DNA of 64,000 bases from positions 1 to 64,000 of the forward strand of contig JAMLHA010000001.1 in NCBI GenBank assembly GCA_023957475.1, in the 5' to 3' direction. The DNA is from Crocinitomicaceae bacterium. Lineage in GTDB: Bacteria; Bacteroidota; Bacteroidia; Flavobacteriales_D; Crocinitomicaceae. Each line of letters opens with the position of its first letter. The first letter of the stretch is position 1. Under the pieces are notes generated by a model that saw only the letters and a list, made by a program, of their open reading frames with translations, ran no database searches and was not told the origin of the DNA. The position numbers and the translations under genes are program-made. Of this stretch, positions 17,974 to 59,770 are shown one piece after another.

Positions 17974-17994
17974 TTATAGCATCTTTTAATGTGA

Positions 17995-18927
17995 TTAAAA
18001 ATAACGAGGAGTTGCAATGGATTTGTTCTTAAATAACAAGTCATAACTTAATAAAAGTTCATGTGTTCCATAATTGTAATTACGTAATTTTGTTGTTGAA
18101 TAATCGAAGGCATAACCAATCTTAAATTGATTTGAGATTTGATATTGAACCATAAACCCAGCACTTTCCATTAGGCGGTAATTAGCCCCAAGCCAAACTT
18201 TGTCGTAGAAGATAAATGCTAGACTCATATCTAACGCTATTGGTGCTTGTTCTGTTATTTTTAACATGGCACTTGGTCTAATTTTTAGCATTCGACCTGT
18301 TTTTATATATCCACCAACTGTAAAATAATAATGACGTTGTGCAATGTATTCTATATTAGTAAAATCTCCCGCCTTTTTCAAATTGTCTATAATTCGCGGT
18401 ATTGCAAAACCAGCAAACCATTGTGTTGATTGGTAGTAAATACCTGCTCCTACGTTTGGTTGTATGTCATTTCTAAACTGCACATTGACAAATTGATCGT
18501 TTTGATCTTGTTTTGTCAATTTCATCAAGTCACCATTCAGTAAATTAATTCCTCCCTTAACACCAAATGAAAGTCTCCCATTGTGTTTTTTAAATTTTAA
18601 ACTATATGAGAAATCAAGGTTAAACCATGTTGAATTTGTTGGACCAACATTGTCGTTTAATAAGCTAAATCCTAAACCAATATTTTCATAACGAAGAGGG
18701 GTATGTAAGCTAAATGTAGTACTCATTGGTGCTCCTTTAAATCCTGCCCATTGTTGTCTATGAAGAGCAGATATATTCATCATATTTCTACTTCCTGCAT
18801 ATGCTGGATTATAGTAAAGCATGTTGTCCATATATTGAGAAAACTGTGCTTCTTGTTGAGAATAAGAGTAATTTAAGAGGCAAGTAGCCATTATTACACT
18901 TAATGATAGTAATTTGATTGCTTTCAT
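17995..18927 (-). CDS. PorP/SprF family type IX secretion system membrane protein
   Basis: 310 residues with a signal peptide (MKAIKLLSLSVIMATCLLNYSYSQ) followed by the PorP/SprF signature QEAQFSQYMDNMLYYNPAYAGS. The rest is an outer-membrane beta-barrel. SprF is needed for surface delivery of the adhesin SprB in Flavobacterium, and PorP/SprF paralogues are typically encoded just after proteins with type-B sorting domains. The gene fits that: it lies 62 bases after the giant adhesin, but a strong terminator occupies the gap. The next gene follows after 21 bases. Confidence 0.93.
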   Translation of the reverse strand: MKAIKLLSLSVIMATCLLNYSYSQQEAQFSQYMDNMLYYNPAYAGSRNMMNISALHRQQWAGFKGAPMSTTFSLHTPLRYENIGLGFSLLNDNVGPTNSTWFNLDFSYSLKFKKHNGRLSFGVKGGINLLNGDLMKLTKQDQNDQFVNVQFRNDIQPNVGAGIYYQSTQWFAGFAIPRIIDNLKKAGDFTNIEYIAQRHYYFTVGGYIKTGRMLKIRPSAMLKITEQAPIALDMSLAFIFYDKVWLGANYRLMESAGFMVQYQISNQFKIGYAFDYSTTKLRNYNYGTHELLLSYDLLFKNKSIATPRYF

Positions 18928-18945
18928 ATTGCTTTATTATAGTGG

Positions 18946-18981
18946 AAAAAAGAAGCTCTAATTTTATAGAACTTCTTTTTT
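18946..18981 (-). terminator. Intrinsic terminator between adhesin and sprF-like gene
   Basis: AAAAAAGAAGCTCTA (18946-18960) and TAGAACTTCTTTTTT (18967-18981) form a 15-bp stem with one wobble pair and a 6-base loop. On the minus strand the T-run follows the stem directly. Only about 18 bases remain before the sprF-like ATG, too few for a separate promoter after the hairpin. Confidence 0.85.
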
Positions 18982-18989
18982 GATTTATA

Positions 18990-21900
18990 TTATCTTTTTA
19001 AATAAACGTAACCTTTGTAAATTTCACCCGAATTTGGCTGACCTTCTTCACCTCCTAATTGAAGAATATAGTAATAGGTTCCTTCTGGAAGATTGTCACC
19101 ACCAACATTCAATTTACTAATAGAAGATCCATCCCAGTCATTCAGATAATTATCATTTTGATAAACTTCTGTACCCCAGCGGTTGTATATCCAAACCTTT
19201 GAATTTGGATAAGCATCTAATCCACCTATATAGAATACATCGTTAAGACCATCTTTGTTTGGTGTAAAGATTTCAGGTATTACAATTTCACATACTTCTA
19301 CAATAAGAACAATTTCTTTTTGGTCTGTACAGTCATTAGAATTACTTGCTACTACAGTATATTTGCCTGCATTTGTTGCTAGAGCAGTCTCTATAACATA
19401 ACTTGAACCAATTCCTACTTGCGTTGTTCCATGATACCATGTATAAGTATAAGATGAATCAGGATTTTCGATACTTAATATAGTTCCCAAACCTGAGCAT
19501 ACTATTACCGTATCTTTATTACCTACAAAGTTTATTGTAGGTAATTCATCAACAATCACATTAAATGAATAAGTAGTCACATTTCCATTGACATCAGTTA
19601 CTGTATAAGTAACTGTTGTTGTACCAACAGGTAATATATCCCCACTTTGATGAGTACTTGTAACTGTCTGTATAGCACAATTGTCTGAAATTGTTTCTTG
19701 CCATACTGCTGGTTCTCCTTCACAGAAGATACCAGACGCTGGAACAACATTAACTATTGGTTTAATAGTATCTGCTATCGTTAATACAAATGAGCAATTA
19801 CTAGAATTCCCATTGTTATCTGTTGCTGTTATAACAATTGTATGAGTACCTACTCCAAGTTGTGTACCTGCTGCAGGTTGTTGAGTTACTACTAAAGTTC
19901 CACTAGCAATATCACTACAATTATCAGTGATATTTAATTGAGAGCTAGTTGTAAAGTCTGGAACTATTATATCACATGAAGCTGTTGTAGAAAATAAAGT
20001 TGTATCATTAATACATCCACCATTAAACACTGGTGATAATGTGTCTGCAACAACTAAATTAAAGTTACATGTACTTGAATTACCACTGTTATCCAATGCT
20101 GTAATAGTTACAACATGTGTTCCTGAACCTAATACAGTTCCTGCTACTGGATTTTGAGAGACTGTTATCGTTCCACTTGTTATGTTACCACAATTGTCAA
20201 CAATATCTAATTGAGTACTTGATGTAAAATCTGGAACAACAATATCACATGTTGCCGGATCATTAGAGAATAAAGTCGTATCACTGATACAGGAATTAAA
20301 TACTGGTGCTTCATCATCTCCTATTGCTATACTATATGTTGCAACATCATCAGGGCATCCTCCTGTACCCGTTACTGTATATGTCACATTAATAGTTCCT
20401 GTACTAGATGCAGATAAATTACCAGATGCATCAATTGTTGCTATTAATGGATCAGAAGTTCCCCATGAGCCTCCTGTATCACCATTAGATGTATAAGTTG
20501 CTGTACCTGATGGACATAGTGTTGTGAGTCCTGAAATTGTTCCAGCATCAGCAGGTGTTGAAACAGTTACTTGTTGAGTAGATGAGTTTGGACATGCACC
20601 AGGTGTAGTGTATTTCACTGTATAAGTTGTGCCTCCTACTCCGTTAGATATAGCCCCTGTTGATGCATTAATTGTTGCACCGTCAGAGACAGCAGGATCA
20701 AAACTAAATGTACCTCCAGGTGTTGCAATATTTGATGCATTATTTGATTCTCCAGCACAAAAATCTGTTAAAGTAAATGAAGCATTAACAGCTGCTGGGT
20801 TTGATAAAGAAGCACTTGTAGAAACAGTACAACTATTTTGATCGGTAACTTGAACACTATAACTTCCTGCACATAATCCTGAAATAGAATTGGAGTTTAC
20901 ACCAATTGGGTTACCACCTTGGTCAAACCATTGATAGTTTAAAACACCAGTTCCACCACTTGCAGCTATTGAAATAGAACCATCACAAGAACCATTACAA
21001 TTTGGATTAGATGGGGTAATATTGTTAATTGTAGGTGCACCTAAATTACTTAAACTTATAGTTCCCACAGCCGTACAACCTAATGCATCTGTTATTAAAA
21101 CATTATATGTAGCTGCTCCTAATCCTGTGAATGTACCTGTTCCTTGAGTCGTTAAACCATTATCTATTGAATAAGTATAACCAGGTGTGCCTCCATTTGG
21201 AACTAAGACTATTTGTCCGTTTGATGCTCCACATGTTGGATTAGTTGGAGTAGATGAATAACTTGGTGATGGATTTACGTTAACAGTAACTTGAGCTAAA
21301 CTTTGACATCCATTCAATCCTGTTGCTGTAACATCATAAATAGTTGTTATACTTGGTGAAACAGAATGTGATGCACCCGATCCAACACCGTTATTCCATG
21401 AATAGCTTGTTCCTGCAGGTCCAGACACAGAAATGACTGAAGAATTTCCAGAACAAATCGTTGATGGAGTAGCGTTAGTGTTTATGGAAGGTTTAGCATT
21501 AATAGAAACATTAACTGAAGCTTGTGCTGTACATCCTGCACCATTTGTAACTGTTACTATATATGAACCAGCATTTGCACTTGTTGAAGATCCAATAGTC
21601 GGGTTTTGTAATGTTGAAGTATAACTATTAGGTCCAGTCCAACTATATGTACCACCACCTGTAGCTGTTAGATTAATATCTTCTCCTTCACAAACAGGGC
21701 TGTTAGAGTTTGCAGTTGCCGTAGGGTTGTCATTAACCGTAACAGAAATATTCGATGAATTAGAACATCCTGTACTTGCTGTCATAGTAACAGTATATGT
21801 GCCAGACATTGAAGAAGTAGCATTAAGTATTGTTGGGTTTTGGCTTGTTGATGAATAACTGTTTGGTCCAGTCCAGCTATAAGATGTTCCTCCAGCAGTT

Positions 21901-24740
21901 GCAGTTAAATTAATTGATTGTCCAACACAAATAGGAGAATTAACTCCAGCAGTAATTGTTGGTAATGAATTAACTGTTACACTTACTTGAGCATCTGCTT
22001 TACAGCCATTGGAACCTGTTACTGTAACTGTATAAGTACCAGACATAGAAGTCGTAGCGTTTGAAATAACAGGGTTTTGCTGAGTTGATGTAAATCCATT
22101 TGGTCCTGACCAACTGTATGTACCACCTCCTGTTCCACCTAAATTAATAGTACCTCCTACACAGAATGGTGCTGTATGGACTGTTGCACCAGGGTCAGGT
22201 AGTGAATTTACAGTTATAACAACCGATTCTTGAGAAGAACAAGAACCATTTGACACAGTTACTGTATATGTACCAGACATAGCTGTCGTAGCATTTGATA
22301 TTACAGGGTTTTGTTGAGTTGATGTAAAGCTATTCGGACCAGTCCAATTATATGAAGTACCACCAGATGAACTTAAGTTAATAGTTTCACCAGCACATAG
22401 AGTAGGTTTTGGTGAAGATGCAGATGCTGTTGGTGCTGTATTAACTGTAACTGTTACATTTGCTGTTGCCGTACAACCATTTGAGCCTGTAACTGTTACC
22501 TGGTAACTTCCTGCATTCGCACCTGTTGCATTAGTAATTGTAGGGTTTTGTTGGGTTGATGTAAATCCATTTGGACCCGACCAACTATATGTACCACCAC
22601 CTGTAGCTGTTAAATTAATTGCATCACCTACACAAGGACTATTACCTGAAATTGTAACAGTTGGTTTTGTGTTAACTACTACATTTACAGTAGTTGATTT
22701 GCTACAACCATTTTGGGTTACATTAACGGTATATATTCCAGCATTATCTGACGTTACACTTGTAATCGAAGGGTTTTGTAGAGTGGATGTAAACCCATCA
22801 GGTCCCGACCAACTATAACTACTTCCTCCTGTTCCACTTAAATTTATTGTTTCTCCCTCACAAACAGGTGAATTAGAACTTGCACTTGGATCTGGTAATG
22901 AAGTTATAGACACATTGACAGTTGCTTGTGCAGAACAACCAGCTAAATTAGTTACTGTTACAGTATATGTTCCTGCATTAGATGCTGTTGCATTCGTAAT
23001 ACTAGGGTTTTGTTGTGTTGATGTATATCCATTAGGTCCTGTCCAGCTATAAGAACCTAAGATTCCACCTCCTCCAGAAGTTAGATTTATAGTGCTTCCA
23101 GTACATACAGGGCTATTTGACCCTATCGTAGGTGTTGGTTTTGGATTTACAGTAACTGATACATTTGCTGTTGATATACAACCATTTGCTGCTGTTACTG
23201 TAAGAATATAAGTCCCTGCATTTGCACTTACAGCTGATGAAATTGTTGGATTTTGAATACTGCTCGTAAATCCACTTGGTCCAGTCCAACTATAAGTTCC
23301 ACCGCCTGATGATGTGAAATTAATAGGATCACCAACGCATACTGGACTGTTTGATGAAGCCGTTGCTGTTGGACTTGGGTTTACCGTTACATTCGTTGTT
23401 AAAGTTGTTGAACATGTTCCATTTGAAGCAAGTAGTGTATAAGTTCCAGTTGCTGCTGTTGTTGCATTGGATATCGATGGATTTTGAACACTGCTCGTAA
23501 ATCCATTAGGTCCTGTCCAACTGTATGTTGTTGCACTTCCTCCAGCAGATAAATTTAAGGTTTGACCAGAACAAATAGGACTATTTGATGTTGGATTAAT
23601 TGTTGGTGATGTATTGACTACAACAATGGTTTGAACATCATCTGTACATCCACCAGCATCTGTAACAGTTAATGTGTATGTTCCTGCAGCAGCAGCAGTT
23701 ACACTAGAAATTGAAGGGTTTTGACTGGTTGATGTAAATCCATTAGGTCCTGACCAGCTATATGAATAAGGTGAAGTACCACCTGTTGCACCTCCTGATA
23801 ATGATAATGTTTGCCCTATACATACAGGGCTATTAGAAGATGCTGTTGCTGTTGGACTTGAAGGAATTGTATAAGTAATGATTACTATTCCTGTAGCGCC
23901 ACTTCCACCAGTTGAAGTTTGCCAACTTCCAGGCCATGTATTTAGGTGGATCGCACCACCACCACCACCAGCTCCATAAATAGCTCCATTTGTACCATTT
24001 TGAATATCTCGGTTAGTAATGTTATTTAGTCTTCCATCACCTCCTTTTCCTCCATAAAGGTTACCACCATTTCCACCAATACCTTGAACTGCCGGATTTG
24101 CAGGTGCAGTAGCATTTGAGCCATTTGCTGTTGATCCAGCACCTCCACCTCCTGCACCACTTCCGTCTCTATTTGAGGCACTATGATTACCCATAGATCC
24201 ATTTCCTCCTGTATAATTTCCTGAACCATTAGATCCTATACCTCCTGCACCTCCTGCTCCGTTATCTCCAATATGATATCCATTCCCATTATTGTAAACT
24301 CTAGCTCCACCACCTCCAGTACCTCCTGTGGCAGTTAATGTACCAAAAGGAATTGTTGCTGGTCCACTAAAAGTACTTGTTCCGCCATTAAGTCCATTAC
24401 CAGCTGCAGCGCTACCGGAATTGCCTATTCCACCTGCTCCTGCAGCCCCAACAGTGAAATTATATACTTCACCAGGTGTAACCGTATAAGTTCTTGTGGC
24501 TGCACCACCACCACCGCCACCTCCTCCTTCAGAACAGGCTTCTTCGCCAGAATTGGTTTGTCTTGAGGCAGTACCTCCACCACCTCCACCACCTCCAATT
24601 ACTGTTACTGTAATTGAAGTTACACAGGAAGGCACAGTCCATGATCCACTTGTGGTAAATGTCACTGTCGTTTGACCAATTCCAATAAAATTAAGGAAAA
24701 AGGATAAAAACCCTAGCAATAGTAGCGATATCTTATTCAT
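18990..24740 (-). CDS. Giant secreted adhesin: Gly-rich N-terminus, Ig-like repeats, HYR domains, T9SS type-B sorting domain
   Basis: 1916 residues. A signal peptide (ends near IGIGQ) is followed by a glycine-rich domain (about 25-290: SGSWTVPSCVTSITVTVIGG, then many GGGG and GAGG runs). Next come ten Ig-like repeats of about 79 residues (about 295-1085), each with NSPVC.G..INL, Y.WTGPNGFTSTQQNP and GTYTVTVT. A diverged eleventh unit follows, then two SprB-like segments (NPTCGASNGQI; NPNCNGSCDGSI), then Ig and two HYR-like domains (DEAPVFNSCISDTT; DTLSPVFNGGCINDTT). The end is a CHU_C/type-B sorting domain (IPEIFTPNKDGLNDVFYI, IYNRWGTEVYQND). It is SprB-like: probably exported by the T9SS with the adjacent PorP/SprF protein and displayed as an adhesin. 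The ligand is unknown. Confidence 0.88.
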   Translation of the reverse strand: MNKISLLLLGFLSFFLNFIGIGQTTVTFTTSGSWTVPSCVTSITVTVIGGGGGGGGTASRQTNSGEEACSEGGGGGGGGAATRTYTVTPGEVYNFTVGAAGAGGIGNSGSAAAGNGLNGGTSTFSGPATIPFGTLTATGGTGGGGARVYNNGNGYHIGDNGAGGAGGIGSNGSGNYTGGNGSMGNHSASNRDGSGAGGGGAGSTANGSNATAPANPAVQGIGGNGGNLYGGKGGDGRLNNITNRDIQNGTNGAIYGAGGGGGAIHLNTWPGSWQTSTGGSGATGIVIITYTIPSSPTATASSNSPVCIGQTLSLSGGATGGTSPYSYSWSGPNGFTSTSQNPSISSVTAAAAGTYTLTVTDAGGCTDDVQTIVVVNTSPTINPTSNSPICSGQTLNLSAGGSATTYSWTGPNGFTSSVQNPSISNATTAATGTYTLLASNGTCSTTLTTNVTVNPSPTATASSNSPVCVGDPINFTSSGGGTYSWTGPSGFTSSIQNPTISSAVSANAGTYILTVTAANGCISTANVSVTVNPKPTPTIGSNSPVCTGSTINLTSGGGGILGSYSWTGPNGYTSTQQNPSITNATASNAGTYTVTVTNLAGCSAQATVNVSITSLPDPSASSNSPVCEGETINLSGTGGSSYSWSGPDGFTSTLQNPSITSVTSDNAGIYTVNVTQNGCSKSTTVNVVVNTKPTVTISGNSPCVGDAINLTATGGGTYSWSGPNGFTSTQQNPTITNATGANAGSYQVTVTGSNGCTATANVTVTVNTAPTASASSPKPTLCAGETINLSSSGGTSYNWTGPNSFTSTQQNPVISNATTAMSGTYTVTVSNGSCSSQESVVITVNSLPDPGATVHTAPFCVGGTINLGGTGGGTYSWSGPNGFTSTQQNPVISNATTSMSGTYTVTVTGSNGCKADAQVSVTVNSLPTITAGVNSPICVGQSINLTATAGGTSYSWTGPNSYSSTSQNPTILNATSSMSGTYTVTMTASTGCSNSSNISVTVNDNPTATANSNSPVCEGEDINLTATGGGTYSWTGPNSYTSTLQNPTIGSSTSANAGSYIVTVTNGAGCTAQASVNVSINAKPSINTNATPSTICSGNSSVISVSGPAGTSYSWNNGVGSGASHSVSPSITTIYDVTATGLNGCQSLAQVTVNVNPSPSYSSTPTNPTCGASNGQIVLVPNGGTPGYTYSIDNGLTTQGTGTFTGLGAATYNVLITDALGCTAVGTISLSNLGAPTINNITPSNPNCNGSCDGSISIAASGGTGVLNYQWFDQGGNPIGVNSNSISGLCAGSYSVQVTDQNSCTVSTSASLSNPAAVNASFTLTDFCAGESNNASNIATPGGTFSFDPAVSDGATINASTGAISNGVGGTTYTVKYTTPGACPNSSTQQVTVSTPADAGTISGLTTLCPSGTATYTSNGDTGGSWGTSDPLIATIDASGNLSASSTGTINVTYTVTGTGGCPDDVATYSIAIGDDEAPVFNSCISDTTLFSNDPATCDIVVPDFTSSTQLDIVDNCGNITSGTITVSQNPVAGTVLGSGTHVVTITALDNSGNSSTCNFNLVVADTLSPVFNGGCINDTTLFSTTASCDIIVPDFTTSSQLNITDNCSDIASGTLVVTQQPAAGTQLGVGTHTIVITATDNNGNSSNCSFVLTIADTIKPIVNVVPASGIFCEGEPAVWQETISDNCAIQTVTSTHQSGDILPVGTTTVTYTVTDVNGNVTTYSFNVIVDELPTINFVGNKDTVIVCSGLGTILSIENPDSSYTYTWYHGTTQVGIGSSYVIETALATNAGKYTVVASNSNDCTDQKEIVLIVEVCEIVIPEIFTPNKDGLNDVFYIGGLDAYPNSKVWIYNRWGTEVYQNDNYLNDWDGSSISKLNVGGDNLPEGTYYYILQLGGEEGQPNSGEIYKGYVYLKR
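21480..23865 (-). repeat. Tandem Ig-like coding repeats (about ten units of about 237 bp)
   Basis: Each unit encodes about 79 residues with the same framework: a cysteine-containing start, the YSW(T/S)GPNG(F/Y)TST.QNP core and a terminal GTYTVTVT..NGC. Units differ at many positions, so they are old repeats rather than fresh duplications. An eleventh unit downstream keeps only the ends. Boundaries are approximate. Confidence 0.8.
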
Positions 24741-34442: not shown

Positions 34443-37400
34443 ATGTTGAAAAATTTACATTTAGTAATTGTAAGTGTTTTAGTGTCAGTGACATGCTCAT
34501 TCTCCCAATCAGGTTTGGGAACAATTAGAGGGTCGGTGATTGATGGTGACACAAGAGAGCCAATAGGGTATGCAAAAGTATTGCTTTTGCAAGATGGAAC
34601 CGTAAAAGGTGGAGCGAATTCAGATGATGATGGTAAATTCCAAATCAACTCGATTGCGCCTGGTTCTTATGACGTGGAGGTGAGAAACGAGGGTGATGGT
34701 TATCAGCCAACCGCTATTAGAGGGGTTGTTGTCAATGCTGATAAAATCACGTTCTTGGATAACACTGAAATATCTAAACCAAAAGACATTAAGAATATTG
34801 AGGATGTCGTAGTTGTTGCGTATAAAGTTCCACTTATTAATAAAGATGGTGGTGCTTCTGGATCGACAATCACAGCAGAAGATATTTCTCGCTTACCAGT
34901 TCGTTCTGCAGCAGGTGTTGCTCAAACGGTTGGTGGTGTAAACACAGATGAAGGAAGTGGAGCAATTAGTGTGCGTGGTTCTCGTTCAGATGCTACCTAT
35001 TATTATATAGATGGTATCAAAGTGCGTGGATCTGCTAACTTGCCAAAATCTGCTATTGAAGAGGTGTCCGTTATTACGGGTGGTTTGCCTGCCAATTACG
35101 GTGACGTTACCGGTGGGGTAATCTCTGTAACAACAAGAGGTCCTTCTTCAAGATTCTTTGGAAGTATTGAAGCAGTAACTTCTGGTTTCTACTTTAAAGG
35201 TAAAGATAAAGATGGATACGATGGAAAAGTATTTGGTTTAGACAAATATGCATATAACCTTGTAGAAGGAATGCTTTCTGGTCCGTTGTTTATGAAAAAA
35301 GATTCAACAGGTAAGAAAACAAAACCAATTTTAGGTTTCTTGGTTTCTGCCAACTATTTAAATGAATTGGATAACCGCCCGTTAAATGGAGGTAGTTATA
35401 GAATTAAAAAAGACATTAGAGATTCATTGTTGCAATATCCATTGGTGATGAACGCTAATGGTGACGGTACATTCTATAGAGCATCTTTGTTGAAAGAAAA
35501 TGATTTCGAAAAAACAAAGTGGAGAATGAACGCAAGAAGCCAAAACGTTTCTGCTCAAGCAAAAATTGACGTAAATACTGGACCATCTGTGAATTTGTCT
35601 TTCGGTGGGTCATTAAACTATTACGATAGAAGTTTATACGATAGAAATAGTTCATTGTTTAACTTCCAAAACTTTGGAAAGGCAAAGAACTTGGACTGGA
35701 GGGTGTTTGGACGTTTGTCTCAACGTTTCTCAAATAATAGAGAAGGTTCTGCTTCTAAAGTAAAATCAGCATTTTACTCATTGATGTTTGACTACTCTCA
35801 ATCAAGTCAAAAATCGTATGACCCTAAACATGGATTTAATATGTTTAACTACGGTCACGTAGGTACGTTTACTTCTACTTTCGACACGTCGTTTGTATTT
35901 GTTGACAGTTTGAACGCTTATGTAAACCAAGAGGTTCCATTCCAAAGTGGTGTTACTTTTACCGCTTCTGAAACAAATCCAGGTTTGTCAGCGTTGACAA
36001 ATCAGTACTATGATTTGTTTGGTAGTGCTCGTGATTTTAATACAATTAGACAAGGAAACGGTTTGTTAAATGGTGATGCACCGATTTCTGTTTACCAAAT
36101 TTGGAACAACTTAGGAGCTCCATACAATGGTTTTGGTATTTTCCAAAACAATCAGTTGCGTGTTACAGGTTCTGGTTCAATTAACGTTGGTGACCACTCT
36201 ATCTCTTTAGGGTTTGAGTACGAGCAACGTACAGATAGAGGTTGGAGTTCTGGTGACAATGGTCCAATTGGTTTATGGTCTCTTGCTCGTTTGTTAGCTA
36301 ATAGCCACATTACAGAGATTGATAAAAATGATCCAAATCCAACTATTTCACAAGAAGCTGGTTTTCAAAAAATTTATTACAACCGTTTAAATTCTGGTTA
36401 TGCCTCTACTCACAATGGTCAATTTGGTGGTGCTCAAAGTGGAGCTTCAGGTGGTCAAGTTGATTACCAATCATTCTTCGATTACAATGTGCGTAAAGAA
36501 TTAGGTTTAGATCCAGGTGGTAATGATTACATCCAAATTGATGCAATGGATCCAAGTAAATTGAATTTTGGAATGTTTGCACCAGATGAATTGTTGAACA
36601 ATGGTAGATCTTATGTTTCTTATTATGGTTATGACCATGCAGGTAATAAAGTAAAAGGAAGAACAGATATCGATAAATATTTCAATGAATTTGATGAAAA
36701 CGGAAACTACAAACGTTTCATCGGAGCTTTTTCTCCAACTTATATCTCTGGGTATATAATGGATAAGTTTGCATTCCGTGACTTGGTATTCAACGTTGGG
36801 GTTCGTGTGGACGTGTTTGATGCCAACCAACCAGTATTGAAAGATAAATATTTGTTCCATACAGCATTAACTGCTGGTGAAGCAAGAGCAAAAGTAGGTC
36901 AAGCTGATTATGATTGGGTTGCTATCCCAACTTCAATTGGTGATGATTATACAGTATATGTGGACGATGTTAAAGCACCAACACAAATCAACGGATTTAG
37001 AAAAGGTGATGTGTGGTACAATGCGAATGGTGATCAAATTGAAGACCCAGCTGCTCTTCGTGGTGCAAATGGTATCGCTCCTTGGTTAACAGATGCAGGC
37101 AAGGAAACAATTTCTAGTGATGCATTTAAAGATTACAAAGCACAAGTGAGTGTAATGCCTCGTATCGCATTCTCTTTCCCAGTGTCTGAAGAGTCTTCAT
37201 TCTTTGCTCACTACGATATCTTAACAAAACGTCCTACAACAGGTGTTCGTTTTGACCCGTATGAATATCAATTTATTCAAACAAGAAGTGAGATTATTAA
37301 TAACTCTAACTTGAGACCAGAGAAAACAATTGACTATGAATTAGGTTTCCAACAAGTGTTGACAAGAACATCTTCATTGAAAATCTCTGCTTTCTATCGT

Positions 37401-38207
37401 GAACAAAGAGATAACGTTCAGTTGATTAACGTGGTTGAAGCTTATCCTGCAACTTACAAAACATTTGGTAACATCGACTTTGGTACAGTAAAAGGGTTAA
37501 CAATTGCTTATGACTTGAGAAGAACAGGAAATATCCGTATGACAGCAGCCTATACATTGCAGTTTGCTGACGGTACTGGTTCTGACGCTACATCAATGGC
37601 AGGTTTGATCAACGCAGGTTTACCAAACTTACGTGCTATCTTCCCTTATTCATTTGACCAACGTCATGCTTTTGCAATCTCTTTTGACTACCGTTATGGT
37701 ACAGGTAAAGACTACAACGGTCCAAGAATTAAAGATTACGAAGTATTTGGAAACATGGGATTGAACATCATGGCAAATATTTACTCTGGTAATCCATATT
37801 CTAGAAAATTAGACATTGTAAACGAAGGTATGTTCCAACCTCAAGCATCAGGTTTGGATGGATCGACTAACGGTTCAAGATTGCCTTGGTCTTATAGATT
37901 GGATTTACAATTGGATAGAACATTTGAATTTGAAGTTGGTAAAAACGATGATAATAAACGTTCAACATACTTAAATGTATATTTACGTGTTACTAACTTG
38001 TTCAATCAGAAAAATATCTTATCTGTATATAGAGCAACAGGTAACTGGAATGATGATGGTTATTTAGAAGCAGCTAATAGCCAAACAGCCATTCAAAACC
38101 AAGTGGATGAACAATCTTTCAGAAGTTATTATTTAATGAAGATTCAAAATCCTTACAATATTAGTGCACCTAGAACAATTCGTTTAGGTATTAAATTTGA
38201 CTTTTAA
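34443..38207 (+). CDS. TonB-dependent receptor with N-terminal carboxypeptidase-regulatory-like domain
   Basis: 1254 residues. A signal peptide (ends near TCSFSQ) is followed by a carboxypeptidase-regulatory-like beta domain (about 24-110, GTIRGSVIDGDTREPIGYAK). Next is a plug domain (about 140-230, ISRLPVRSAAGVAQTVGGV and GAISVRGSRSDATYYYIDGI), then a large outer-membrane barrel ending in aromatic LGIKFDF. These proteins take up large ligands using TonB energy, or act in T9SS-linked processes. ATG 34443 is two codons after an in-frame GTG. It is followed after 20 bases by a giant secreted protein and then a PorV-type protein, so the three probably function together. No SusD partner is present. 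Confidence 0.9.
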   Translation: MLKNLHLVIVSVLVSVTCSFSQSGLGTIRGSVIDGDTREPIGYAKVLLLQDGTVKGGANSDDDGKFQINSIAPGSYDVEVRNEGDGYQPTAIRGVVVNADKITFLDNTEISKPKDIKNIEDVVVVAYKVPLINKDGGASGSTITAEDISRLPVRSAAGVAQTVGGVNTDEGSGAISVRGSRSDATYYYIDGIKVRGSANLPKSAIEEVSVITGGLPANYGDVTGGVISVTTRGPSSRFFGSIEAVTSGFYFKGKDKDGYDGKVFGLDKYAYNLVEGMLSGPLFMKKDSTGKKTKPILGFLVSANYLNELDNRPLNGGSYRIKKDIRDSLLQYPLVMNANGDGTFYRASLLKENDFEKTKWRMNARSQNVSAQAKIDVNTGPSVNLSFGGSLNYYDRSLYDRNSSLFNFQNFGKAKNLDWRVFGRLSQRFSNNREGSASKVKSAFYSLMFDYSQSSQKSYDPKHGFNMFNYGHVGTFTSTFDTSFVFVDSLNAYVNQEVPFQSGVTFTASETNPGLSALTNQYYDLFGSARDFNTIRQGNGLLNGDAPISVYQIWNNLGAPYNGFGIFQNNQLRVTGSGSINVGDHSISLGFEYEQRTDRGWSSGDNGPIGLWSLARLLANSHITEIDKNDPNPTISQEAGFQKIYYNRLNSGYASTHNGQFGGAQSGASGGQVDYQSFFDYNVRKELGLDPGGNDYIQIDAMDPSKLNFGMFAPDELLNNGRSYVSYYGYDHAGNKVKGRTDIDKYFNEFDENGNYKRFIGAFSPTYISGYIMDKFAFRDLVFNVGVRVDVFDANQPVLKDKYLFHTALTAGEARAKVGQADYDWVAIPTSIGDDYTVYVDDVKAPTQINGFRKGDVWYNANGDQIEDPAALRGANGIAPWLTDAGKETISSDAFKDYKAQVSVMPRIAFSFPVSEESSFFAHYDILTKRPTTGVRFDPYEYQFIQTRSEIINNSNLRPEKTIDYELGFQQVLTRTSSLKISAFYREQRDNVQLINVVEAYPATYKTFGNIDFGTVKGLTIAYDLRRTGNIRMTAAYTLQFADGTGSDATSMAGLINAGLPNLRAIFPYSFDQRHAFAISFDYRYGTGKDYNGPRIKDYEVFGNMGLNIMANIYSGNPYSRKLDIVNEGMFQPQASGLDGSTNGSRLPWSYRLDLQLDRTFEFEVGKNDDNKRSTYLNVYLRVTNLFNQKNILSVYRATGNWNDDGYLEAANSQTAIQNQVDEQSFRSYYLMKIQNPYNISAPRTIRLGIKFDF

Positions 38208-38227
38208 TTCATACTAATTCAGAAGAT

Positions 38228-41200
38228 ATGAAAAATATAATTAAATCTACTTTAGTACTGGGAGCTTTTACCTTGCTTTCCAATATGTCACTAGCGTATT
38301 TATACACTGGTAGTAGCAACGTTCAGCCACAAGGTAACGGAACTAAAGCAAAACCTTCTAACAATGAGAAAGGTGCTGCTTGTGCCCCTGCTGTGAAAAA
38401 ATATATTCTAGAATTTAACGACGTATCAGCTTTGCTTCAAATGGGTGGTCGTTTATTCGAAGATGAGCAAAAAGGAGTTGCAGGATACGAAGTTCCAAAA
38501 GGAGGTGGTGCAAAAGCAATCTTTGCTGCAGCCCTTTGGATGGGTGGTAGAGACCAAAATGGTCAGCTAAAATTAGCTGCCGTTCGTTTTCGTCAAGTTG
38601 GAAATGATTTTTGGGGAGGACCATTAACGGTTACTATTCCTTATCATTCAAATGTGAACTACGATCCATTGCAACCAGTAGGTGACAACACAATTCGTCC
38701 TTATGGTGATGCGAACATTTCTGGAGATGAATGTGCGAAGTACGATAAGTTCTTCCCTGTAAATAAAGCTTCTATTATTCGTTTTAGCTTGTGGTGGGAA
38801 GCGTGTGTAGATCCAAATAAAGAGCCAGGAGCTTGTGAATTGATTGGTGAAGAATCATTGCCAACAAATGCTGAGTTAGCAGCTATTACAGAATGGCCTG
38901 CACACGGTGATCCAAGTTTGTTCCAAGATTATTATTTAGCTCCTTTCTACGATAGAAATGCTGACCAAATCTACAACCCAATGGAAGATGGAGATTATCC
39001 TTGGTACGATGATATCTTGGGTAGAGATGATGTACAATGTGGTGTTGACCGTCGTGTAACCTTGTTTGGTGACCAAACAGTTTGGTTTGTATTCAACGAT
39101 AAAGGTAACGTGCATACAGAATCACAAGGTGAACCAATTGGTATGGAAATTAGAGCACAAGCATTTGCTTTCGCTACTTCTGACGAAATCAACCGTATGA
39201 CATTCTATAACTATGAGTTGATTAACCGTTCTACACAAACATTGACAAATACGTTTTTCTCTCAGTGGGTTGACCCAGACTTAGGATATTCTGGTGACGA
39301 CTACGTAGGTTGTGACGTGTCTCGTGGATTGGGTTATTGTTACAATGGTACTTCAAATGATATAACGAATGGTTCTCAAATTGGATACGGACAAAATCCA
39401 CCAGCTATTGGTGTTGACTTCTTCGAAGGACCTTACCAAGACCCAGATGGAATGGACAACCCTGGTCCTCAATGGAATTCAACTACTCAGTCATGGGATG
39501 TGCCAGATGTAAATGATGCGATTTTAAATAAAGGTATTGTTTATAACGGTATCGGTACTGGTTATGGTGATGGTGTAATTGATAATGAGCGTTTTGGTAT
39601 GAGACGATTTACCTACTTTACCAATGCTGCATCTTATCCTTATACAGACCCATCAGTTGCAACACAATATTATAACTTCATGTCTGGATCTTGGGCGGAT
39701 GGTTCATTGATTTCATTTGGTGGTCCTGGTTATGGTGGGGCTATGGCAACAGATTATGTGTTCCCAGGAGATTCAGATCCATTGCATTGGGGAACAAATG
39801 GTGTTGATCCTGGTAATGCTATTCCTTGGACAGAAGAATCTGCTGGTAACCCAGTAGGAGATAGACGTTTCGTACAATCTGCTGGACCATTTACATTGGT
39901 ACCTGGAGCTATGAACAACATTACTGTAGGTATCGTTTACGGACGTGCTGCAGGTGGTGATTTGATGGCTTCTGTAGATGTAATGAAAACTGCCGATACA
40001 AAGGCACAAGCTTTGTTTGACGCATGCTTTAGAATTTTGGATCCGCCAAATGCACCTAAATTACAAATCCAAGAATTGGAAAATGAGTTGATTTTGACAT
40101 TGTCAAATCCTACAACTTCTAATAACTATGGTGAAAAGTATGAAGAAATTGATGATATCAATATTCCAATTACAGAAACAGATAGATCATACCGTTTTGA
40201 AGGATACCAAATCTTCCAATTGGTGGATGATGCAGCATCTGTTGCAGATATCAAAGATGTTTCAAAAGCACGTTTAGTGGCTCAATGCGATATCAAAAAC
40301 GGAGTGAAAGATTTGACAAACTTTACGTTGAATGAGCAATACGGTATCTTGGAAGGTAAACGTATGGTAACTGGAGCTGATAACGGTATTCAACATTCAT
40401 TCAAATTAACTACCGATGCGTTTGCATTGGGTGATAATCGTTTGGTAAATCACAAGACATATTATTATGTTGCTGTTGCTTATGCATACAACCAATATAA
40501 ACCTTATGACCAAAACGACCCTACTAAGTTGGATGGTCAGAAAACACCATATATTTCATCACGTTTATCGTATGATGGAACTGGTATCAAATCTATAGCA
40601 GCTGTGCCTCACAATCCACTTCCAGAATTGGGTGGTACATACCAAATTGCAGCGTATGGTGCTACACCAAGAATTACAAGATTGGATGGTTATGGTAACG
40701 GAAATAGAGCGTTGGAATTGACTGCTGAATCTCGTAATACGATTGTTAACAATGGTACTTTGGATAAAGTGAAATATGATTTTGGCGGTGGACCAATTAA
40801 CGTGAAAGTTATTGACCCATTGAATGTGGTGAATGGTTTCTTTGTATTAGAATTTAAGGATTATGCACCTACATCTAGCATTAGTTCATACAACTCAGCA
40901 GATACTGCAAGTTGGGTAATTAAACGTTACGCAAGTGAAGGTGGTGCGTTGATTGATACAGTTGCTAGTTCACAAACTATCAATATCAATAATGAGCAAC
41001 TTATTCCAGATTGGGGGGTTTCAGTTCAAATTACACAAGAAAAATATACGAACGAGAGTTCAACTCAATCTTATGAGTTCTATACAACACCAATTTCATC
41101 ATCGATTGAATTTGCAGATAGTTCTAAGAGATGGTTGATGGCTATTCAAGATGATGATTTGTATAGACCAACTAACTGGATTCGTTCTGGAACAACTGAG

Positions 41201-42445
41201 GCAGGACCAGCAGATGCAACTGTGCCAGCTTGGTTAGATCCATCAAATTATGCAGATGAAGTGTCTTTTGGATCAGATCCAGACCAAGTGTATGAAAAAG
41301 TGTTAAATGGTGGTATTGCACCTCATAGAGTTACTGGTTATAACATTGAGTTTATGCCAATGGCTTATATGCCGAATGTAACGCCGTCTTATTCTAGAAA
41401 GTTAGCCTCTATTTCATATTTACCAAGCGTTGATATTGTAATTACTTCTGATAAGAGTAAATGGACACGTGTACCAGTTGTTGAAATGGGACGTGACAAT
41501 ACAATGACTATCGGTGGTGCTAAGGCTGGACAATTAAGAAAAAGTCCTAGTGTTGATAAAAATGGAAACCCAGATGGAACAGGTACAGGTATGGGATGGT
41601 TCCCTGGATATGCGATTGATTTAGAAACAGGAAATCGTTTATACATGGCATTTGGTGAAAATTCCTACATGACTCAAGATAACGGTCGTGATATGAAATG
41701 GAATCCTTCTGATAGAATGGTTGACCAAAATGGTAACTTCGTAATGGCAGGTGTTCATCCAGTGTGGATTTATGGAGCTAATATGCAAAAAATCAATGGT
41801 GTTCCAAATCACTTGAGAGATATGCCAGCTTACGACCCATCAGTTTCTGTTGCAAACAATTTCTTGGAACAAAAAATGAGAGAAATTGAAGCAGGAACAG
41901 ATGTTACTAATAATACACGATTTGTTTATGGTAACTTGGCATGGATTTCTTATCCAATGTTAGCACCAGGGCAAAAATTATTATCTACTGATGTTACAAT
42001 TAAGTTGCGTGTAAATAAAGAATATAAGAATTACGTGGCTACAAATGTAAATCAAGGAAGACCAACGTATTCTTGGAACATGGATGAAATTGCAACACAA
42101 ACAGGAAATCGTCAGGCACTTTCAGAAGTATTGGAAATGATTAATGTTGTTCCTAATCCATATTTAGCATATTCTGAATACGAAAAGAGCAGATTAGACA
42201 CACGTGTTAAGATTGTCAATCTACCAGATGTTTGTACAGTCACTATCTATTCTTCTAACGGTAAACTAATCCGTCAATTCAAGAAAGATAGCCCTGTAAC
42301 TTCGGTTGATTGGGATTTGAATAACCACGCTAGAATACCAGTTGCCTCAGGTATGTATTTAATACATGTACAAGTACCTGATGTAGGTGAACGAGTGTTG
42401 AAGGCATTTATCGGTGTACGTCAAGTTGACTTACAAGGTATTTAA
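38228..42445 (+). CDS. Giant secreted protein of unknown function with a C-terminal secretion-type domain
   Basis: 1405 residues. A signal peptide (MKNIIKSTLVLGAFTLLSNM...) is followed by a long segment with no domain I recognise (LEFNDVSALLQMGGRLFED, FAAALWMGGRDQNGQLKL). A Gly/Asp/Asn-rich middle follows, with possible Ca2+-binding turns (YDRNADQIYNPMEDGDYPWYDD). The end has a FlgD-like/T9SS-tail pattern: MINVVPNPYLAYSEYE, then VTIYSSNGKLIRQF and ASGMYLIHVQVP. Export by the T9SS and attachment at the surface is the likeliest reading. Its place between a TonB-dependent receptor and a PorV-family protein suggests a surface module. The molecular role is unknown. Confidence 0.75.
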   Translation: MKNIIKSTLVLGAFTLLSNMSLAYLYTGSSNVQPQGNGTKAKPSNNEKGAACAPAVKKYILEFNDVSALLQMGGRLFEDEQKGVAGYEVPKGGGAKAIFAAALWMGGRDQNGQLKLAAVRFRQVGNDFWGGPLTVTIPYHSNVNYDPLQPVGDNTIRPYGDANISGDECAKYDKFFPVNKASIIRFSLWWEACVDPNKEPGACELIGEESLPTNAELAAITEWPAHGDPSLFQDYYLAPFYDRNADQIYNPMEDGDYPWYDDILGRDDVQCGVDRRVTLFGDQTVWFVFNDKGNVHTESQGEPIGMEIRAQAFAFATSDEINRMTFYNYELINRSTQTLTNTFFSQWVDPDLGYSGDDYVGCDVSRGLGYCYNGTSNDITNGSQIGYGQNPPAIGVDFFEGPYQDPDGMDNPGPQWNSTTQSWDVPDVNDAILNKGIVYNGIGTGYGDGVIDNERFGMRRFTYFTNAASYPYTDPSVATQYYNFMSGSWADGSLISFGGPGYGGAMATDYVFPGDSDPLHWGTNGVDPGNAIPWTEESAGNPVGDRRFVQSAGPFTLVPGAMNNITVGIVYGRAAGGDLMASVDVMKTADTKAQALFDACFRILDPPNAPKLQIQELENELILTLSNPTTSNNYGEKYEEIDDINIPITETDRSYRFEGYQIFQLVDDAASVADIKDVSKARLVAQCDIKNGVKDLTNFTLNEQYGILEGKRMVTGADNGIQHSFKLTTDAFALGDNRLVNHKTYYYVAVAYAYNQYKPYDQNDPTKLDGQKTPYISSRLSYDGTGIKSIAAVPHNPLPELGGTYQIAAYGATPRITRLDGYGNGNRALELTAESRNTIVNNGTLDKVKYDFGGGPINVKVIDPLNVVNGFFVLEFKDYAPTSSISSYNSADTASWVIKRYASEGGALIDTVASSQTININNEQLIPDWGVSVQITQEKYTNESSTQSYEFYTTPISSSIEFADSSKRWLMAIQDDDLYRPTNWIRSGTTEAGPADATVPAWLDPSNYADEVSFGSDPDQVYEKVLNGGIAPHRVTGYNIEFMPMAYMPNVTPSYSRKLASISYLPSVDIVITSDKSKWTRVPVVEMGRDNTMTIGGAKAGQLRKSPSVDKNGNPDGTGTGMGWFPGYAIDLETGNRLYMAFGENSYMTQDNGRDMKWNPSDRMVDQNGNFVMAGVHPVWIYGANMQKINGVPNHLRDMPAYDPSVSVANNFLEQKMREIEAGTDVTNNTRFVYGNLAWISYPMLAPGQKLLSTDVTIKLRVNKEYKNYVATNVNQGRPTYSWNMDEIATQTGNRQALSEVLEMINVVPNPYLAYSEYEKSRLDTRVKIVNLPDVCTVTIYSSNGKLIRQFKKDSPVTSVDWDLNNHARIPVASGMYLIHVQVPDVGERVLKAFIGVRQVDLQGI

Positions 42446-42474
42446 TCATTGTTAATAAAGATTAATTGAAGAAA

Positions 42475-43542
42475 ATGAGAAATTCAATTTTAAATACTAA
42501 AGCGCTTTTACTTTGTGGAGTTATTGTATTTGGTTTCACAGCTAAAGCAGGTAATGAGGATAGGGTAGGGCAAGCTGGAGCTGCTCACCTATTAATCAAT
42601 CCTTGGGCTAGAAGCTCTGCAATGGGTGATGTTGGTATATCCTCTACAAAAGGATTGGAAGCAACGTTTACGAATATTGCAGGATTATCAAGTACTGAGA
42701 AAACTCAAATCAAGTTTAACTATACCAACTGGATGGGATCTATGACTGGTCTTTCATTGAATAGTGCTGGTATAGCTCAACGAGTTGGGAAAGTATCTGT
42801 AATTGCAGTAAGTATTCAAGCACTTAGTTATGGCGACATCATGATTACTACCGTTCAAAACCCAGAAGGGAATATCGGTACGTTTTCTCCAAGAGCAAAT
42901 GTTTTTAATGTGGGTTATTCACATACCTTCTCTAATTCAATTTCGGGAGGTATTAACTTCAAAGTAATTTCCGAAAGTATCTCTAACATGAGAAGTACAG
43001 GTGTTGCAATTGATGCAGGTATCCGCTACGTGTCTGGTGAAAAAGAACAATTAAAGTTTGGTATTGCTTTGAAAAACGTTGGGCCAACAATGAAGTACAA
43101 AGGGGATGGTTTGAATACACAAGTAAAGTATTTAACATCTAGCTTTATTGGTTCATTGGAACAACGTACTGCAACTTTCGAAATGCCTTCTTTATTGTCA
43201 ATCGGTGGTTCGTATGATTTCATTTTCAACGAAATGAATCAATTAACTTTGGCATTGGCTTTTACAGCAAACTCTTTTTCTTATGATCAATTTAGAATCG
43301 GATTGGATTATGGATTCTCTCATTCTAAAGTTGCTTTTAATTTAAGAGCAGGATATGTTTACGAAAAAGGTATTTTCAAAGCTGTAAACAGAGCAAATGC
43401 ATTGATTGGACCTACTTGCGGTTTATCAGTTGATGCATTGGTTGGTGAGAAAAAACACGCTTTAGGAATTGAATATGCAGCTCGATTTGCTGGACCTTTC
43501 GGTGTGATTCACACTGTTGGGGCAACAATCAGTTTGAAATAA
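42475..43542 (+). CDS. PorV/PorQ family outer-membrane protein
   Basis: 355 residues. After a signal peptide (ends near FTAKAG) it has the family N-terminus GAAHLLINPWARSSAMGDVGISSTKGLEATFTNIAGLS (quoted in part as LLINPWARSSAMGDVG), followed by a FadL-like beta-barrel pattern to the end. PorV shuttles T9SS cargo at the outer membrane; this paralogue probably serves the giant protein encoded just upstream. The start is ATG 42475, three codons after a TTG. It ends 76 bases before greA, with a terminator after it. Confidence 0.88.
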   Translation: MRNSILNTKALLLCGVIVFGFTAKAGNEDRVGQAGAAHLLINPWARSSAMGDVGISSTKGLEATFTNIAGLSSTEKTQIKFNYTNWMGSMTGLSLNSAGIAQRVGKVSVIAVSIQALSYGDIMITTVQNPEGNIGTFSPRANVFNVGYSHTFSNSISGGINFKVISESISNMRSTGVAIDAGIRYVSGEKEQLKFGIALKNVGPTMKYKGDGLNTQVKYLTSSFIGSLEQRTATFEMPSLLSIGGSYDFIFNEMNQLTLALAFTANSFSYDQFRIGLDYGFSHSKVAFNLRAGYVYEKGIFKAVNRANALIGPTCGLSVDALVGEKKHALGIEYAARFAGPFGVIHTVGATISLK

Positions 43543-43563: not shown

Positions 43564-43567
43564 TATG

Positions 43568-43605
43568 ACAAGGGAGTTCTTTTTGAACTCTCTTGTTTTA
43601 TTTTT
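43568..43605 (+). terminator. Intrinsic terminator after the porV-like gene, at the 5' end of the greA transcript
   Basis: ACAAGGGAGTTC (43568-43579) and GAACTCTCTTGT (43585-43596) form a 12-bp stem with one wobble pair and a TTTTT loop, followed by TTTATTTTT. It lies directly downstream of the greA promoter. Confidence 0.85.
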
Positions 43606-56467: not shown

Positions 56468-59400
56468 ATGGGAACGACAAAAAAATATTGGAAAGGAATT
56501 GAAGAATTAAATGAAACTCCAGAGTTTCTTCAATCAAAGCAACAAGAGTTTGCTGGATACCAAACAATAGAGCAATTTTTAGGTAACGAAAAAATTGAGG
56601 AGTCATCATCTAATCGTAGAGATTTTCTTAAATTTTTAGGATTTAGTGTGGCTGCTGCTACTGTTGCGGCTTGTGAATCGCCAGTTACTAAAATTATTCC
56701 TTATGTAAACAAACCAGAAAATGTAACTCCTGGTATGGCTACATGGTATGCTTCAACTTATTACGATGGAAATGCTTATGGTAGTATCCTTGTAAAAACA
56801 CGTGAAGGTCGTCCAATTTACATTAAAGGTAATAGAGATCAAGGTATTAACAAGGGTGCAGTAAATGCTCAAATCATAGCTTCTGTTCTTGGATTGTATG
56901 AATCTTCAAGATTGACAGACGCATTGGAAGATGGTAAAGTAGGTACACTTTCTGCGATTGATGGTAAAATCATGAAGGCAGTGAAAGAAGCGAATAAAGT
57001 GACTTTATTCTCTAATTCAATCATCAGCCCTTCTTTGAATAAAGCGATTGGTACATTTGCTTCTAAATTAGGAGAAGGTAAATTTGAACACATTCAATAC
57101 GATGCTCAGTCTTATGCTGGTATGCGTGCAGCAAATAAAGAATCATTTGGTTTAGTAGTTGAAGGAACAGAAAACGGAATTATTCCTGATTACGATTTCT
57201 CAAAAGCTAAAACAGTTGTATCTGTTGGAGCTGACTTCTTAAACTCATGGTTGTTGGCAACTCAATTTACACATCAATTCAGTTTGACGAGAAACCCAGA
57301 TAATGATTGGATGTCTAAATTGTTTGTGTTTGAATCTCAAATGTCAATCACTGGTTCAAATGCTGATTACAGAGGAATGATTAAACCTTCTGAACAAGCA
57401 AATGTATTGGCTTATATGTTGAAAGCATTTGGTGTTTCAACGGATGTAAGCACTGCACTGTCAGAACCAACAAAAGCTATTGCTGATTTAGCGGTTGCAG
57501 AATTGAAAGCTTCAAAAGCAGAATCTATCGTTGTAGCTGGTTCAAATAGCAAAGCAGTACAAATTTTAGCAAATAAATTAAACGAAGTAGTAGGAGCTTA
57601 TACAAAAACAATCAATGTAAACAATCCTATTAACTTGTTTCAATCAGAAGACGAAAAAGTTCAAAAATTTGTAAGCGATGTAATTGGTGGAAAAGCAAGT
57701 GATGTAGTTATCTTCTTAGATACAAACCCTGCTTACTCATTGCCAAATGCTGACGAATTTGGAAAAGCAATTTCTAAAATCAAAACATCGGTAGCGATTT
57801 CTCAATTTGCTGATGAAACTGCTGCAAAATGTAAATACATCATTCCAGAATTACACGCATTGGAATCTTGGAATGATTACCAACCAACAAAAACACATTT
57901 CGCAACGGCACAACCAACGATTCGTCCATTGGCTGAAAACACAACTTCACCAATCGAATCATTCTTAGTTTGGGCAGGTGCTGCGTTTAGAGGTGGAAAA
58001 GATTCAAGAGTAGCTTATGATTACATCAAATCTAACTGGGAGACAGAAAGATTTGCAACTCAATCTAGTTATACAACACCAGATTCATATTGGGATATGA
58101 TGGTTCACAATTCATGTTATGATTTAACAGTAGCTGATCCATCTGCACCTTCATTCAATGCTTCTTTAAATGTAGCTTCTCAATTACCTAAAGTAAGTGG
58201 AGCAACAGAAGTAGTCTTGTATCAAAAAGCATCTATCGGAGTTGGTATTCAAGCTGCAAACCCTTGGTTGCAAGAGATGCCAGACCCAATGACAAAGGTA
58301 ACTTGGGATAACTGTTTTACAATGAACCCAGCAGACCCTGCATATAGCTACCGTAAAACTTACGATGAACGCCATGGTTTAAGTTTGGCAACATTGACAG
58401 TTGGTGAAACAAAAATCACATTGCCTGTTTATCCATTACCAGGACAAGCTATTGGTACAATTGGTATCGCTTTAGGATACGGTCGTGGAGCTAATGGTGA
58501 AAAAATCGGTAAAGGTGCTTATCAAGTTGCAGAATTTGGTGGACATGAATTGGATGAAAATGGAAAACCAAAACCAATTGGTGCCAACGCATTTAAATTG
58601 GTTACTTTCCAAGGAGGTTCTTATTCATACGAATCTGCAGGTGCATTGAGCGGAGAAGAAGGTGAGTATTTAATTGCAGCAACGCAATTGCACCACACTG
58701 TAATGGCTCGTGAGTCAATTATTAGAGAAACAACTTTAGAAACGTATAAAAAGGGAGAAAAAGAATCATTCAATCCTGCACATACTTTACAAAAAATCAA
58801 TAAAGAAGGTCACCACGAAGAAGTTCCAATTTCAGAATTTAACTTGTGGGATGATCACCCAGTTGAAAATGTTGGTCACCGTTGGGTAATGTCAATCGAC
58901 TTGAACAAATGTTTCGGTTGTGGAGCATGTTTGATTGCTTGTCAATCCGAAAACAACGTTCCAGTTGTTGGTAAACACGAAGTAAGAAAAGGACGTGAAA
59001 TGCACTGGTTGCGTATCGACCGTTACTTCTCTTCTGATGTAGAAGCTTCTATCGGTACAAGAAAAGATCCTGATACATTTGATTATCACGCAGCAGAGGT
59101 AGCACAACAAAATCCAAAAGTTGTTCACATGCCAATGATGTGTCAGCACTGTAACCATGCTCCATGTGAGACTGTTTGTCCAGTGTCTGCAACAACACAT
59201 AGTAATGAAGGATTGAATCAAATGACTTATAACAGATGTATTGGTACACGTTATTGTGCGAACAACTGTCCTTATAAAGTAAGAAGATTTAACTGGTACA
59301 ACTACCCTTCATACAAGAAATTTACAGAAATCAACCCAGCACAAGATGATTTAAGCCGTTTGGTATTGAATCCAGATGTTACAGTTCGTACACGTGGTGT

Positions 59401-59719: not shown

Positions 59720-59770
59720 TAATAAAGTAGAAATAGAAATTAATTAGTAATCGAATAAAAACCAATTGTA

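Follow-up and report, generated by a model that had tools for sequence, protein, structure and literature searches.

The locus raises the question of whether three adjacent genes for outer-membrane proteins in a Crocinitomicaceae bacterium form one functional module, and of what kind. The window analysed here comprises 64,000 nucleotides of a 3.14 Mb genome, whose closest named relatives are Taishania and Fluviicola. A first-pass annotation of the window had described a TonB-dependent receptor (TBDT), a protein of 1405 residues (hereafter the middle protein), and a PorV-type protein in tight succession, and proposed them as one module and as a candidate for an undescribed system. In this study, the three open reading frames were confirmed (Table 1), with intergenic gaps of 20 and 29 bases. 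The PorV-like gene may alternatively start at a TTG at 42466. The three genes form one transcription-unit-like cluster that ends in a terminator-like hairpin and is flanked by unrelated housekeeping genes: PcrB/GGGP synthase and 4'-phosphopantetheinyl transferase genes upstream on the opposite strand, and GreA, HIT, LemA, and M48 genes downstream. Pfam and neighbourhood annotation of the window detected no SusD in the cluster or in the neighbouring genes, as the first reading had held. An Rfam search of the window found no riboswitch and thus gave no regulatory clue for the triad. Elsewhere in the window, positions 56468-61171 (+) encode Fe-S/molybdopterin-type respiratory subunits with weak Qrc/Dsr-type matches, probably an ordinary-looking alternative complex III.

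Table 1. Coordinates of the triad and of related features (window positions unless a locus is named).
Feature	Position	Strand	Description
TonB-dependent receptor (TBDT)	34443..38207	+	1254 aa; signal peptide, CarboxypepD_reg N-terminal extension, plug, barrel
Middle protein	38228..42445	+	1405 aa; Sec signal peptide, N-terminal core, T9SS CTD; predicted surface-exposed
Conserved N-terminal core of middle protein	38360..40027	+	about residues 45-600
Ca-site-like turn of middle protein	38951..38995	+	DRNADQIYNPMEDGD; putative, from sequence
PorZ/PorU-class T9SS CTD	42122..42442	+	residues about 1299-1405; PNPY, G1345, W1362, G1375/Y1377, K1392
PorV-family protein	42475..43542	+	PorV/PorQ-family outer-membrane barrel, distinct subfamily by sequence; ATG start
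Intrinsic-terminator-like hairpin with T tail	43567..43597	+	13 pairs, loop 5, tail TTATTTTT; before greA
Type B module parts	15718-24740	-	1916-aa Ig/PKD adhesin with CHU_C/type B CTD; PorP/SprF-family barrel 17995-18927; PorE-like OmpA protein
Stand-alone middle-protein subfamily	L003, L004, L005, L008 (~7.9-12.1 kb)		~1345 aa
Tandem arrays of core + ordinary CTD	L233 (399-19632), L234, L236 (2570-7643)		genomes G787, G059
Short plug-type proteins	L002:1791-2492, L007:1761-2465, L115:1051-1806		234-252 aa, without barrel

We investigated the conservation of the triad by searching for the middle protein and reading the DNA around its loci. Within the family, 149 of 150 genomes had a match to the middle protein, within the order 194 of 199, within the class 250 of 295 sampled, and within the phylum 181 of 396 surveyed; some of the weaker phylum matches are to the C-terminal domain (CTD) alone, and among the matches listed about 67 genomes include the N-terminal core. 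The order TBDT-middle-PorV-like was kept in 36 of 40 loci of other Bacteroidia families. Other Bacteroidota classes showed it in 19 of 20 loci, where the one exception is truncated by the end of its contig. The middle and PorV-like genes are separated by a median of 39 bases. Scattering of the genes in relatives, which had been named in advance as evidence against a module, did not occur. Since the identical order recurs in other families and classes, the triad is not due to chance. Middle proteins of the other classes are shorter (about 1020-1260 aa) and strongly diverged, which indicates that the gene linkage has outlasted most of the sequence similarity.

The three genes might nevertheless be merely co-transcribed, encoding outer-membrane proteins with independent functions, since an interaction of their products is a prediction. 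At the class level, greA and HIT also belong to the conserved gene order, lying 3' of the three genes in 32-33 of 39 loci, so that part of the conservation of the triad reflects general synteny. In the other classes, however, greA/HIT was found at none of the loci while the triad stayed, and the triad is therefore the unit that persists. The pair of middle and PorV-like genes also duplicates as a unit, as seen in a tandem arrangement behind a single TBDT (TBDT-middle-PorV-middle-PorV; L006:3010-17811, L238), and the order is also preserved in paralogous copies. In two genomes of other classes that are rich in paralogues, several such pairs recur, and a TBDT lies upstream in every case where the DNA read extended far enough (L242-L244). 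With these observations, independent functions are very improbable. Among 31 loci, evolutionary distances were correlated more closely between triad members (r 0.78-0.86) than with greA (0.56-0.61) or HIT (0.20-0.26), a comparison that is only suggestive because both neighbouring genes are short and conserved. As far as sequence comparison can tell, it is virtually certain that the triad is a conserved module.

The TBDT gene lies directly 5' of the middle gene in nearly all conserved loci. The receptor matched Pfam CarboxypepD_reg (1.1e-12) and Plug PF07715 (4.2e-10), and its plug region matched the colicin I receptor 2hdf (1.1e-8); the barrel was assigned by homology and length, and the C-terminus reads ...RLGIKFDF. 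The SusC/RagA model TIGR04056 (cut-off 368 bits) did not match the window receptor, and two distant orthologues were matched weakly, at the N-terminus (84 and 62 bits). By inspection, IEDVVVVAY precedes the plug in the window receptor and the corresponding region is degenerate in other families; a strict TonB-box pattern matched 4 of 56 receptors. Short proteins resembling the N-terminal extension and plug of the receptor were observed near the triad in some relatives (Table 1).

The middle protein starts with a Sec signal peptide (MKNIIKSTLVLGAFTLLSNMSLAY), and by inspection no Cys occupies the lipobox position. The first-pass annotation had found no recognised domains in this protein. This holds for the N-terminal core, which gave no match in Pfam and PDB sequence searches, and it does not hold for residues ~1300-1405, which form a type A-like CTD of the type IX secretion system (T9SS). 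The sole Pfam match, a weak FlgD_ig, also falls at the CTD, and a match to a known unrelated family, the other outcome named beforehand as adverse, did not appear. The Ca-site-like turns noticed earlier are present in the sequence, with moderate conservation only: a DxDxDG-like motif occurs in 33 of 56 orthologues. Structure prediction of the protein alone was informative for the CTD and poor for the N-terminal part, where AlphaFold2 run from 9 sequences gave a mean pLDDT of 35.6. Viral contigs were scanned for further relatives and yielded none. A second subfamily of the middle protein is found at a different locus with its own conserved neighbourhood, without a TBDT or a PorV-like gene, showing that the middle protein is not invariably tied to a receptor. 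By analogy with orphan type B cargo, this stand-alone subfamily may borrow a barrel in trans.

What had been called a secretion-type end could be assigned more specifically. TIGR04183 (cut-off 23) scored the middle protein at 22.4 bits by hmmscan and above the cut-off, at 27.4 bits, in the genome search. Of the family members scanned, 14/14 were matched by TIGR04183 and 13/14 by the PorZ model, and the latter match fell at the CTD in the members checked individually. Previous reports described a near-invariant C-terminal lysine and an essential L-beta3-beta4 glycine in type A CTDs (PMC10994853, PMC11285876). Across 153 CTDs of middle proteins, PNPY, G1345, W1362, G1375, Y1377, and K1392 are 99-100% conserved, and an alignment by eye identifies K1392 with this lysine and G1345 with this glycine. 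A profile of the 153 CTDs scored PorU of the same genome at 22.3 bits and PorU2 at 18.6 bits, compared with at most 8.2 bits for ordinary type A CTDs; the PorU and PorU2 genes of the host genome each adjoin a PorV-family gene. For the C-terminal half, the AlphaFold2 model was poor overall, with a CTD pLDDT of 65-80, and in Foldseek against the PDB the top hits of the CTD were PorZ (E 1.1e-5) and PorU, followed by the RemZ/NucA CTDs in the translocon. A profile of the whole protein against PDB sequences hit only PorZ, weakly and at the CTD (E 0.023). By sequence and predicted fold, the CTD of the middle protein is of the PorZ/PorU class. PorU and PorZ retain their CTDs, which are held by PorV and PorQ (PMC5562754). 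Since the hairpin that marks PorU/PorZ CTDs is insufficient alone to block cleavage (PMC11285876), retention of the CTD in the middle protein is something we infer from this kinship.

The host genome encodes the SprA translocon (G000:C7:47840-55048, 2428 bits). SprA and the middle protein were surveyed in the identical 396 genomes and the two surveys compared by hand. SprA was found in 304 genomes, among them all 181 with a middle-protein match, whereas the 92 SprA-negative genomes gave no match. The middle protein, earlier annotated as secreted with a possible place at the cell surface, thus has a Sec signal and a T9SS CTD and is confined to SprA-positive genomes; a surface location is predicted, and export by the T9SS is very probable on these sequence features. 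The remaining 123 of the 304 SprA-positive genomes have no match, Flavobacterium among them; its family (f65) was recognised through an SprA nearly identical to that of F. johnsoniae. As SprA is present without the triad in many genomes, the triad is a client of the T9SS and not an essential part of it.

The third gene had been annotated as a PorV-family shuttle. The protein is a member of the PorV/PorQ family (NF033709, 159.7 bits, cut-off 90), and phmmer matched it to F. johnsoniae PorV (6h3i_F, 1.1e-9). It fell below the equivalog cut-offs for PorV (NF033710, 90.6 against 250 bits), PorQ (NF033711, 91.3 against 220), and PorV2 (NF052325, 43.8 against 325), as did the orthologues tested from other classes. 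Separate genes for PorV (beside PorU), PorV2 (beside PorU2), and PorQ are present in the host genome. In a tree with three outgroups and saturated distances, 62 PorV-like proteins of triads formed a clade apart from PorV, PorQ, and PorV2 with a support of 0.92. By these sequence criteria, the PorV-like protein forms a subfamily of its own, separate from the three. The PorU2-PorV2 pair of the host genome (NF052324, NF052325; G000:C1:172300-179000; L202, L181) also has a CTD of the PorU/PorZ kind, in PorU2. We considered and rejected a connection with the BAM complex of Bacteroidota: its FadL homologue, BamG, belongs to a different family, and one distant orthologue reached only 26 bits on the BamG model.

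We examined the relationship between the class of the CTD and the presence of the PorV-like gene. Other proteins share the N-terminal core of the middle protein, among them stand-alone secreted proteins of ~555 aa with an ordinary type A CTD, encoded in tandem arrays of up to 11 genes (Table 1), whose size suggests diversification. None of these array proteins has a PorV-like gene downstream. Over all loci, a PorV-like gene lay directly downstream in 121 of 132 cases with a PorU/PorZ-type CTD, versus 0 of 31 relatives whose CTD is of the ordinary kind (Fisher p 2e-24, in a test that ignores relatedness and takes its 31 negatives from only 3 genomes). For type B CTDs, previous reports showed that the proteins are anchored by cognate PorP/SprF barrels (PMC9143113, PMC12618676) and that the CTD determines the partner barrel (PMC12618676). 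The linkage seen here at the level of genes agrees with this rule. Because the CTD is of the PorZ/PorU class, the PorV-like gene more plausibly encodes the private carrier or anchor of the middle protein than a generic shuttle, and we consider such a role likely from the sequence data. PorV itself is a recycled carrier of type A substrates (PMC10994853, PMC12618676), and the PorV-like protein could by the same token be a dedicated shuttle only, which would take the middle protein from SprA and hand it over, with the receptor itself or LPS as the final anchor. The stand-alone subfamily, which has no adjacent barrel gene, fits such a shuttle; ordinary-CTD cargo of the same family, on the other hand, never has a barrel gene of its own, and the known members with a PorU/PorZ-kind CTD stay bound to PorV or PorQ. 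We regard a pure shuttle as unlikely.

The conserved operon, the class of the CTD, the barrel subfamily, the linkage of CTD and barrel gene, and the confinement to SprA-encoding genomes are directly supported by sequence comparison. On this basis, we lean towards the view that the triad is one outer-membrane uptake complex, in which the T9SS-exported middle protein sits on its own PorV-type barrel and works with the TBDT. The protein of 1405 residues would be made with a Sec signal and, guided by its CTD, would cross the outer membrane via SprA, CTD first, onto the PorV-like barrel. This barrel would take it over from SprA and remain bound as its anchor, the middle protein keeping its CTD as PorU does on PorV and PorZ on PorQ. 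We infer these steps from the families to which the proteins belong. More loosely, by analogy with SusCD and BtuBG (PMC10404256), the large N-terminal part may sit above the TBDT in a physical complex, capture or prepare a ligand, and pass it to the TBDT for TonB-driven import. The arrangement would resemble SusCD, with a T9SS cargo and a PorV-type anchor in place of the SusD-like lipoprotein lid.

The module could also work in the other direction, as an accessory device for T9SS or outer-membrane assembly, that is, a third pair like those of the attachment complex, whose receptor delivers outward or energises release in the manner of Oar. PorV-family relatives of known role all serve the T9SS, a TBDT required for protein secretion is known (PMC6434023), and the module is near-universal in the family. 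Its absence from the 123 SprA-positive genomes mentioned above, including Flavobacterium, argues against such a device. In the two paralogue-rich genomes, the N-terminal parts of recurrent paralogous pairs are more divergent than the CTDs. Multiple copies with diverging N-termini in one genome are easier to reconcile with ligand-specific importers than with a core machine part. An assembly device is thus quite unlikely, and the uptake complex remains our preferred reading.

Each ingredient of the triad is known from other systems. Like the PorU:PorV and PorZ:PorQ pairs of the T9SS attachment complex (PMC5562754), the triad pairs a predicted surface protein, with a putatively retained CTD, with a PorV/PorQ-family barrel; its CTD is closest to theirs in sequence and predicted fold, with the L-beta3-beta4 Gly and the C-terminal Lys conserved. 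The differences lie in its passenger, which is related neither to the C25 sortase nor to the PorZ propellers, and in its barrel, a separate subfamily. In addition, the triad is linked to a TBDT and missing from many T9SS-positive genomes. Modules with a type B CTD and PorP/SprF, with or without PorE (PMC9143113, PMC12618676), likewise have a cargo gene followed by its own FadL-like barrel gene, whereas the triad has a type A-like CTD, a PorV-family barrel, and a TBDT in place of PorE. The window itself also contains a complete type B T9SS module (Table 1), which is the textbook counterpart of the triad. SusCD and BtuBG lid complexes (PMC10404256) share with the triad an N-terminally extended TBDT co-encoded with a large surface partner and several paralogous sets in some genomes. 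The partner in the triad is neither a lipoprotein nor SusD, comes with a PorV-type barrel of its own in addition to its T9SS CTD, and would act as a lid only by analogy. Oar of Myxococcus, a TBDT required for PopC secretion (PMC6434023), is also functionally tied to a secreted protein; for export in the triad, the T9SS CTD offers the simplest explanation, and a secretion role of its TBDT would be conjecture. Open-licence PMC papers on PorV paralogues and on TBDTs with T9SS partners contained no account of the triad, in line with the initial view of an undescribed system. On this literature, the combination appears to be new: a third sort of pair of CTD protein and FadL-like barrel, coupled to a TBDT.

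The triad brings together, within a single conserved operon, two systems that typify the outer membrane of Bacteroidota: TonB-dependent uptake and type IX secretion. Flavobacterium, the best-studied model genus for the T9SS, lacks this operon, which may be why the triad escaped notice. In the current view, PorV is the single shuttle that serves all type A CTDs (PMC12618676). If our reading is true, this view needs an exception, and the triad would be the first case of a type A-like CTD served by its own carrier rather than by the shared PorV. It would also account for the several PorV-family proteins kept per genome, and it offers a testable rule, that the partner barrel is set by the class of the CTD.
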